Assembly: GCA_947452965.1 (NCBI GenBank)
Contig: CANGEW010000007.1
Span: forward strand, 1-64,000
Direction of reading: 5' to 3'
Length of the DNA: 64,000 bases
Source: Chitinophagaceae bacterium
GTDB taxonomy: Bacteria > Bacteroidota > Bacteroidia > Chitinophagales > Chitinophagaceae
Made by a program: the position numbers and the translations under genes. Shown here one piece after another: positions 57,060 through 59,060 of this stretch. Positions within the stretch are counted from its first letter, which is position 1, and each line of letters begins with the position of its first letter. The notes beneath the pieces were generated by a model, which saw only the letters and a list, made by a program, of their open reading frames with translations, searched no databases and was not told where the DNA came from.

Positions 57060-58175
57060 TTAATTACCCTTAATCATAAAAACGTACTCCTGTATTTTTT
57101 TTATCTGTGTAACTCTATCAGTCTTTCGTAGAATTGGATTTGTTGTAATTTTTATGTTTTCAAAACTGGGTAATTTTTTAAGTGTATTTACAACTGAAAA
57201 AATATTGTAAGATTTTATAGCAAATACCACACCTTCGGAACTCTCTTCTTTACTTGATAGGACACCAACTAATTCTCCGTTCTTATTAATTACAGGTGAT
57301 CCGCTATTACCTTCATTGGCTAGTGTACTTAATTGGTAAAAGATTGAGTCCATTTGGTATCCATTCTTAGCACTTATATATCCTTCTCCGTATACAATTT
57401 CTTGTTTTGGAAAACCTAAAGTAAAAATGGGTTCTCCTAATTCACAGGTGGATTTTTTTATGCTAAAAGGGAGGGGGGCTAATTTTTTAAAATCTTGATC
57501 AATAATTTTAAGAATGGCAATATCATTTTGATTATCACTATAAATAGCTTCCGCAGCGAATTGCTCTCCTTTGTTATTTTCTACAACTAAATGATGGGTT
57601 GCCTCAGTTAGTACATGTGCGTTGGTAACAAGGTAGTTGTTATTCACATCAATCATAAAACCAGTAGCCCTGAAATTGCTTTCTAATTTTGATTTGGCAG
57701 GTGTTGTATTATCTGAGGTGTTGATTTGATTGACTTTCGTTTCTAATTTTTTATACTTTACATCCTGCTCTCTTATTTTTTCAACAAGAGGTCTTAGGTT
57801 ATTTACTTTTACATTAGTAAAGAACGAAAAAATGGAACTACTAAGAAAAGAAATAATGATGGCTATAGATGCAGCAACCGCAATGGTTCTTTTATATTGA
57901 TTCCAGAGGTAAATAATTTTGCTTTTAGGAGATAGGGGAGAGTTTTTGATGATGCCTTGTTGTTTTAATTTGTCAACCGTCTCTCTTATTGATTTTTTTA
58001 ATGCCTGTTGATTCCCAAACTGATCCAATTGGTCTAAAAAGTAAGTACATTCCACAAATAGTTGATCAATTTCAGGATTGTTTTGCCTAAGATTTTCAAA
58101 ATTAGCTTTCTCTTCTAAGTTCATTTCTCCTTGAAGATACTTTTCAATATCGGCGATTAATTGTGACTGGTCCAT
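57060..58175 (-). CDS. Membrane fusion: anti-sigma-like N-terminus + periplasmic trypsin-like protease
   Basis: Numbered as in the listed ORF (start 58202; ATG 58175 preferred because it follows the sigma-factor stop by 1 bp; ATG 58187 would overlap it by 11 bp). Residues ~10-100 are an acidic-basic helical cytosolic part (DIEKYLQGEMNLEEKANFENL) like zinc-free anti-sigma factors of Bacteroidota. Residues ~106-128 are one membrane helix, ~135-165 a coiled-coil linker. Residues ~172-345 are a trypsin/HtrA-like domain with His196 (TNAHVL), Asp227 (NDIAIL) and Ser300 (GNSGSPV), no PDZ. It probably holds the sigma factor and protects the envelope in one chain; the anti-sigma role is inference from position and shape. 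Confidence 0.83.
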   Translation of the reverse strand: MDQSQLIADIEKYLQGEMNLEEKANFENLRQNNPEIDQLFVECTYFLDQLDQFGNQQALKKSIRETVDKLKQQGIIKNSPLSPKSKIIYLWNQYKRTIAVAASIAIIISFLSSSIFSFFTNVKVNNLRPLVEKIREQDVKYKKLETKVNQINTSDNTTPAKSKLESNFRATGFMIDVNNNYLVTNAHVLTEATHHLVVENNKGEQFAAEAIYSDNQNDIAILKIIDQDFKKLAPLPFSIKKSTCELGEPIFTLGFPKQEIVYGEGYISAKNGYQMDSIFYQLSTLANEGNSGSPVINKNGELVGVLSSKEESSEGVVFAIKSYNIFSVVNTLKKLPSFENIKITTNPILRKTDRVTQIKKIQEYVFMIKGN

Positions 58176-58176
58176 A

Positions 58177-58743
58177 TTAATTTTCATGTTTATATTCCGC
58201 AAAGAATAATTTTTTTAACCTCATTAAGCATTTATATTTCTGGGTTTTAGCATTATCAGCATTCGTATATTTAAATTCTGCAGCAATCTCATTCATGTGC
58301 TTCTTTTGTATATAATAGGCTTCTAATAAGCTTTTACAGGGTTCCCCAATTTTCGACAATGCGTTTTCCATGATATGAAAGCGATCTTGCTGTTTTTCAT
58401 GTTTTGTCACATCCTCTTCAATAGCTACATATTCTTCAAAGTCGTCTGCTTGTAGACCAAATCGCTGAATTTGTTGTAATTTTTTTAGCCAAATTCTCTT
58501 ACAAACAGAGTAGAGGTAGGTTTTAATCAAGCAGTTAAGCTGAAATTCATTGTCTAGCGATTTTTGATACAATACAATCATAGCTTCCTGAAAAGTATCT
58601 GAGGCATCATCCATGGATCCCTTATTATTAATAATAAGGTTTTGTATCATGGGGAAGTGACTTTTATAAATAGTCTCTATAGATGCTTTATCTTGAATAG
58701 CTAAACCCTCCAATAATAGTTTATCCTGCTCGATAGTACTCAC
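58177..58743 (-). CDS. ECF-type RNA polymerase sigma factor
   Basis: A 188-residue sigma-70-family protein. Region 2 is in residues ~15-95 (FPMIQNLIINN...DDASDTFQEAMIVLYQK, LIKTYLYSVCKRIWLKKLQ), region 4 in residues ~125-185 (LSKIGEPCKSLLEAYYIQKKHMNEIAAEFKYTNADNAKTQKYKCLMRLKKLF), with a short acidic linker. The start is GTG 58743; no in-frame ATG precedes region 2. The stop is 1 bp from the preferred start of the membrane fusion protein, so they are one operon. An inverted repeat (58775-58810) lies upstream. Confidence 0.9.
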   Translation of the reverse strand: MSTIEQDKLLLEGLAIQDKASIETIYKSHFPMIQNLIINNKGSMDDASDTFQEAMIVLYQKSLDNEFQLNCLIKTYLYSVCKRIWLKKLQQIQRFGLQADDFEEYVAIEEDVTKHEKQQDRFHIMENALSKIGEPCKSLLEAYYIQKKHMNEIAAEFKYTNADNAKTQKYKCLMRLKKLFFAEYKHEN

Positions 58744-58774
58744 TTACATTGTATTTATACTGATTTATTTGATT

Positions 58775-58810
58775 GGTAACCCAAAAAAAATTTTATTTTT
58801 TAGGGTTACC
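58775..58810. promoter_or_regulatory. Inverted repeat GGTAACCC between divergent sigma operon and lipoprotein gene
   Basis: GGTAACCC (58775-58782) and GGGTTACC (58803-58810) are perfect 8-bp inverted arms 20 bp apart, with a pure A/T spacer. Each arm read outward from the other could be the -35 element of a promoter facing the gene beyond it: the sigma operon on the left and the lipoprotein on the right. GTAAC resembles the AAC-containing -35 boxes of ECF sigma factors. TATATTTG (58815-58822), a housekeeping -7 element, follows on the right. Confidence 0.55.
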
Positions 58811-58868
58811 TTTTTATATTTGCCGTATTAATTAGCAAATTATAATTTTAAACCAAAAAAAAATCAAA

Positions 58869-59060
58869 ATGAAAAAGTTTTTATCAATTGCTTTCATCGC
58901 TGCTTCATTAGTAGCTTGTAATGGTGGTTCTAAAGAAGAAGCTCCTGCTACAGATTCTACAGCGGTTGCTCCTGCTGCTGATTCAACTGTAAAAGTTGAT
59001 ACTGCTGCTGTTAAAGTTGATAGTGCTGCTGTAAAAGTAGACACTGCTGCTAAGAAGTAG
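58869..59060 (+). CDS. Small lipoprotein with heptad repeat
   Basis: MKKFLSIAFIAASLVAC is a lipoprotein signal with Cys17. The mature ~46 residues are Ala/Val/Asp/Lys/Thr-rich and contain tandem 7-residue repeats (VKVDTAA, VKVDSAA, VKVDTAA), so they form a low-complexity, possibly extended or coiled-coil tail. It is divergent from the ECF sigma operon across an inverted repeat and may be a target of that sigma factor. No function is recognised; small repeat-bearing lipoproteins of this shape are common in this phylum. Confidence 0.85.
   Translation: MKKFLSIAFIAASLVACNGGSKEEAPATDSTAVAPAADSTVKVDTAAVKVDSAAVKVDTAAKK

Follow-up and report, generated by a model that had tools for sequence, protein, structure and literature searches.

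A two-gene locus in the window, the 64,000-nucleotide stretch of Chitinophagaceae DNA analyzed here, has in our estimate roughly a one-in-two chance of being an autoregulated module made of an ECF sigma factor and a membrane anti-sigma factor that carries its own site-1-type protease. We hold a fuller version of this reading somewhat more tentatively. In it, the anti-sigma factor would serve as its own site-1 protease, using an HtrA-type Ser/His/Asp triad in cis or between copies in an oligomer, within a two-gene envelope circuit that is near-universal in Chitinophagaceae, occurs in related families, and has a small lipoprotein as its main output.

The open reading frames of the sigma factor, the fusion protein, and the divergent lipoprotein lie where an earlier note on this sequence had placed them (Table 1). 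The fusion frame contains two in-frame ATG codons, at 58187 and 58175, of which the former overlaps the sigma stop codon. In an alignment of homologs, the full-length proteins begin at the position of ATG 58175. The gap to the sigma stop is therefore 1 bp, as the note had preferred, and the fusion is 371 aa long. Residues are numbered throughout according to the 375-aa version, counted from ATG 58187; the triad H191/D222/S295 in this numbering is H196/D227/S300 when counted from a TTG start.

Table 1. Features of the sigma/fusion locus (positions in the window; residues of the fusion counted from ATG 58187)
Feature	Position	Strand	Details
ECF sigma factor gene	58177..58743	-	188 aa, GTG start, TAA stop at 58179-58177
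Anti-sigma/protease fusion gene	57060..58175	-	conserved start ATG 58175
Putative zinc-less class-I anti-sigma domain, helices 1-3, residues 5-76 of 375	57960..58175	-	hhalign + AF2
Single membrane helix, residues 99-120, invariant Ala105-Ala106	57828..57893	-	AF2
Helical linker, probable coiled coil, residues 132-157	57717..57794	-	AF2
Periplasmic HtrA/DegS-type serine protease domain without PDZ, residues 172-325	57213..57674	-	Trypsin_2, Foldseek
Catalytic His191	57615..57617	-	H in 74/74
Catalytic Asp222	57522..57524	-	D in 74/74
Catalytic Ser295 in GNSG[SG]P	57303..57305	-	S in 74/74
Conserved C-terminal tail, residues 340-375 (...DRVTQIKKIQEYVFMIKGN), where PDZ would be	57063..57170	-	
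Predicted sigma-dependent promoter of sigma/fusion operon, GGGTTAC-N15-GTATAAA	58754..58782	-	
Predicted sigma-dependent promoter of lipoprotein gene, GGGTTAC-N15-GTATTAA	58803..58831	+	
Divergent small lipoprotein gene, 63 aa, PG1828-like	58869..59060	+	lipobox (LVAC); NCBIfam PG1828_fam_lipo below cut-off

The two genes are conserved as a pair. We collected 179 loci in which a sigma gene is followed by the fusion, with spacings that are most commonly -1, +1, -8, or +2 bp. Strong homologs of the fusion (E of 1e-28 or better; weaker hits score no better than ordinary HtrA paralogs) were present in about 285 of 299 genomes from the same family, all but 14, and the named relatives with a homolog include Chitinophagaceae, Ferruginibacter, and Pedobacter. 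When 393 Bacteroidota genomes were searched, the fusion turned up in Chitinophagaceae and in three more families belonging to its class, and most other groups yielded HtrA-level matches only. The N-termini found in this search are partly diverged, but the diverged loci that we inspected still contain the upstream sigma gene, the membrane helix, and the protease, and the sigma gene together with a full-length fusion was found in more than one family. Relatives differ in the genes that follow the fusion, and the conserved unit is therefore sigma plus fusion. This arrangement is much more than chance. The pairing of a sigma factor with a one-polypeptide anti-sigma/protease fusion, described by the earlier note from a single locus, thus recurs across genomes. 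Among the metagenome bins that carry a Chitinophagaceae-type locus, three (L034, L037, and L053; ~60% identity) are titled Streptomyces griseus or Chitinophaga pinensis, names that look wrong. At one further locus (L031), the sigma gene appears to be interrupted, its frame breaking after ~126 residues next to an intact fusion, possibly owing to a sequencing error.

The sigma product matched TIGR02937 (E = 2.9e-15; 56.3 bits, above the cut-off of 42.9). In a structural model of a relative's locus, described below, the sigma2 and sigma4 helices were predicted at high pLDDT, and a Foldseek search with that relative's sigma matched SigE/RseA (1or7) and AlgU/MucA. Judged by the family match and the relative's predicted fold, the product is an ECF sigma factor.

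The N-terminal part of the fusion looks like a zinc-less class-I anti-sigma domain. AlphaFold2 (AF2) placed helices at residues 7-18, 24-36, and 38-76, with a short fourth helix at 90-97. The ~75 N-terminal residues matched no Pfam model above cut-off, with zf-HC2 recurring below it (E = 0.02-0.1), and a sequence search against the PDB returned no significant match. We then compared profiles using hhalign, with residues 1-97 from 179 sequences on one side and eight zf-HC2 proteins of the same family on the other. This single comparison scored 86.3% (E = 4.8e-6), against 0.2% for the reversed profile and 0.11% for the sigma profile versus zf-HC2, and it paired "iERYl.GEM...Er..FE.LRk" of the fusion with "L.dYv.g.L...e...vE.HL" of zf-HC2. 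No Cys or His is kept at the columns of the HxxxCxxC zinc motif in the alignment of homologs. That motif is present in only about half of the class-I family and is not needed for membership, and class-I domains without zinc are common (PMC7406223). Given the profile match and the frequency of zinc-less members, we therefore file the N-terminus in this class, in which case it would be expected to bind sigma. The anti-sigma identity that had been surmised for this region is thus backed by the profile-profile match with its clean controls, while the single-sequence search against anti-sigma HMMs stayed below the Pfam cut-off.

The remainder of the fusion has the layout that the earlier note described, in which the helical part is followed by a membrane helix, a linker, and a trypsin-like domain, all of them recovered with AlphaFold2 and Trypsin_2. 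The AlphaFold2 model (19 sequences, mean pLDDT 71, with low confidence in the membrane and linker part) showed a beta-rich protease domain followed by a C-terminal helix plus a strand. The domain matched Trypsin_2 at E = 2.5e-23, with DegP/DegS as the closest NCBIfam models, and its nearest folds in Foldseek were DegP (8f0a, E = 3.5e-12), HtrA1, and DegS deltaPDZ (2qf0). A profile search found no PDZ domain in the fusion, in which only ~50 residues lie beyond the protease domain. The intact triad was borne out by comparison with 74 full-length homologs: His191, Asp222, Ser295, Gly293, and Gly296 are invariant, as are Ala105 and Ala106 of the membrane helix, and N294 of the GNSG motif is kept in 72. 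Homologs with a diverged N-terminus also retain the triad and GNSG. The invariance of the triad argues that catalysis by this domain matters. The linker is weakly conserved in sequence. The C-terminal tail is conserved (Q361 in 72/74, K373 in 70/74, and F or Y at position 370 in 73/74) and would be our leading candidate for a regulatory element. The same genome also encodes a 371-aa secreted Trypsin_2 paralog (L002; G000 contig C37, 1078-2193) that shares the protease and the C-terminal tail. This paralog is without the anti-sigma part and has no sigma neighbor in the surrounding stretch examined.

Contact between sigma and the fusion was approached in two ways. First, we modeled a relative (L043) in which the sigma stop codon lies directly and in frame before the fusion ATG, reading the stop as Gly so that AlphaFold2 received one linked chain. 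Because the pTM of this model was 0.43, the relative placement of sigma and fusion is not trusted. Second, covariation between sigma and the N-terminus across 179 pairs (Meff 122) rose above the level of random pairings. The top pairs, however, contained a disproportionate share of membrane-helix columns, and the signal could therefore stem from shared ancestry or alignment noise. Neither the AlphaFold model nor this confounded covariation yielded a confidently predicted contact between sigma and the N-terminus.

The regulatory output of the locus is suggested by a sharp promoter motif. The sequence GGGTTAC-N15/16-GTATWAA precedes the sigma gene at 173 of 178 loci, where shuffles of the same upstream sequences give an expectation of 0.0, and this predicted promoter of the sigma operon differs from the housekeeping one. 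Where the flanking sequence was long enough, nearly every locus has a second copy on the opposite strand pointing toward the lipoprotein gene, and of 79 such loci, 75 contain a small lipoprotein-like ORF divergent from sigma. The proposal that the divergent lipoprotein belongs with the pair gains from these shared and facing motifs. The lipoprotein in the window matched NCBIfam PG1828_fam_lipo at E = 9.5e-10, with 39.1 bits, below the cut-off of 50. Across the family, the motif was found in 57 of 61 genomes, mostly in one to four copies each, and a reversed control pattern was much rarer. It precedes sigma itself and one to three PG1828-like lipoproteins, and in some relatives it also precedes a 96-aa protein like the glycogen-binding domains AMPK1_CBM/CBM48 (just under cut-off) or a secreted protein of ~146 aa with a long leader. 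In the genome of the window, a slightly looser pattern gave four matches, two of them at this locus; the other two lie within or adjoin frames that run opposite or through, have no plausible target, and were dismissed as chance. From the position and specificity of the motif, we infer that it is recognized by this sigma factor, and the simplest reading of the sequences would be an autoregulated ECF sigma factor with a small envelope regulon.

Several features of the putative targets were observed along the way. The small lipoproteins of the 75 loci are rich in Ala, Thr, Asp, and Lys and end in Lys in 47 cases and in His in 11. In Braun lipoprotein, the C-terminal Lys is joined to peptidoglycan, and the terminal Lys seen here is reminiscent of it. 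In some genomes (L090, L074/L094, L133, and L136), the sigma operon is faced by GGGTTAC promoters or lipoprotein copies arranged in tandem, in twos or threes. The 96-aa protein looks cytosolic and follows the motif in several genera (L062, L076, L091, L093, L095, and L099). In five cases (L060, L088, L092, L102, and L103), the motif is separated from the ATG of a secreted protein of ~140-150 aa by 160-220 bp, which is unusually long, and these leaders may contain a regulatory RNA.

Taken as a mechanism, our preferred reading would begin with the cytosolic anti-sigma domain holding sigma, as its homology and operon position suggest. An envelope signal would activate or expose the DegS-like periplasmic protease domain, which would cut the linker that joins it to the membrane helix, most likely the linker of a neighboring copy within an oligomer. 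An RseP-type site-2 protease would then cut the Ala-rich membrane helix, and cytosolic proteolysis would free sigma to transcribe its own operon and the divergent lipoprotein gene from the shared motif. An M50 protease of the RseP type is encoded in the genome of the window. In Escherichia coli, RseA is cut first by DegS and then by RseP before it is degraded (PMC8103513). Self-cleavage would be a plausible step for the release of sigma.

Other explanations have to be weighed against this one. The fusion could be a true anti-sigma factor whose protease domain acts on other periplasmic proteins in quality control, or reports damage by a change of shape, with the site-1 cut left to a different protease, for example the HtrA encoded separately in the genome. 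We consider this somewhat unlikely. Degradation of misfolded proteins is a common activity of HtrA enzymes, the genome does encode a stand-alone HtrA-like protein (L003), and the poorly conserved linker of the fusion offers no recognizable cleavage site, all of which would suit such a role. However, full reading of sigma-linked loci showed the protease still attached to the anti-sigma part, and an activity with no bearing on release would leave its fusion to a regulator hard to account for. It is improbable that the protease-like domain works chiefly as a sensor that binds a ligand, in which a ligand-induced change frees sigma without catalysis: a pure binding module would not need the triad that is invariant in 74 of 74 homologs over several families, even though an ability to bind cellulose has been described for the S1C peptidase-like domain of RsgI9 (PMC12203970).

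Questions can also be raised about the N-terminal part, which might help sigma as a co-activator, like some FecR- or RskA-type proteins, or have another cytosolic job. RskA is reported to act as a dual activator-inhibitor (PMC7509140), and neither approach to the sigma contact gave a confident prediction. We nevertheless regard this as very improbable, as the class-I anti-sigma homology and the coupling directly after the sigma gene fit inhibition, although co-activation would also be consistent with both. Finally, there is next to no chance that an ordinary ECF sigma factor merely sits beside an unrelated membrane protease. The differing downstream operon genes indicate that neighborhoods shuffle, but 179 loci keep sigma and fusion side by side as other neighbors change, and this conservation of the pair refutes coincidence.

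The module that we propose resembles several known systems. With E. coli RseA/DegS/RseP and RpoE (sigma-E), it shares an ECF sigma factor, a single-pass anti-sigma factor, a periplasmic DegS-type domain, and a genome-encoded M50 site-2 protease. In contrast to that system, the anti-sigma factor and the candidate site-1 protease are here one polypeptide, and the PDZ domain with which DegS senses misfolded outer-membrane proteins is missing, its place being taken by the conserved C-terminal tail. Like the class-I anti-sigma factors RsiW, RskA, RslA, and ChrR, the fusion has a three-helix core with a fourth helix before the membrane and matches the zf-HC2 profile; unlike them, it is without the HxxxCxxC motif and has a protease ectodomain. 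FecR/FoxR-type anti-sigma factors are processed within their own periplasmic part, as may be the case here, but no TonB-dependent transducer is among the neighbors read, and the protease in the fusion is of the classical Ser/His/Asp kind.

The earlier note held that anti-sigma factor and protease are separate proteins in known systems. This was too strong, as RsgI9 of Clostridium thermocellum has an S1C protease-like ectodomain, and RsgI is self-cut via a different, autocleavage domain (PMC12203970). RsgI9 and the fusion both combine an anti-sigma domain, one membrane helix, and an outside S1C-type domain, and regulated intramembrane proteolysis with a first cut in the same protein, known from RsgI factors, is what we propose here. 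Since RsgI proteins self-cut and RsgI9 carries an S1C-like domain, the general idea of a one-protein anti-sigma factor with proteolysis is not new. The partners of RsgI are SigI factors, however, and not ECF sigma factors. Moreover, RsgI relies on a separate autocleavage domain for the cut, and cellulose binding is the role described for the S1C domain of RsgI9, whereas the fusion has an invariant triad, no other ectodomain between membrane helix and protease, and no Pfam or NCBIfam match to an RsgI N-terminal or autocleavage domain. An ECF anti-sigma factor with an HtrA-type ectodomain and an invariant triad was not found in the literature searched, the coverage of which is incomplete.

In a large survey, a class-I anti-sigma neighbor accompanied 6% of Bacteroidota ECF sigma factors, compared with 32% on average (PMC7406223). 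For one branch of the phylum, the gene pair offers a conserved candidate answer to how these sigma factors are controlled, and it gives a likely regulatory context to the widespread small PG1828-like lipoproteins. The motif is sharp, with few sites per genome, and could be put to direct use as a reporter. Should the release cut be the work of the protease, one protein would house the entire front end of regulated intramembrane proteolysis, and the step would be genetically simple to test.
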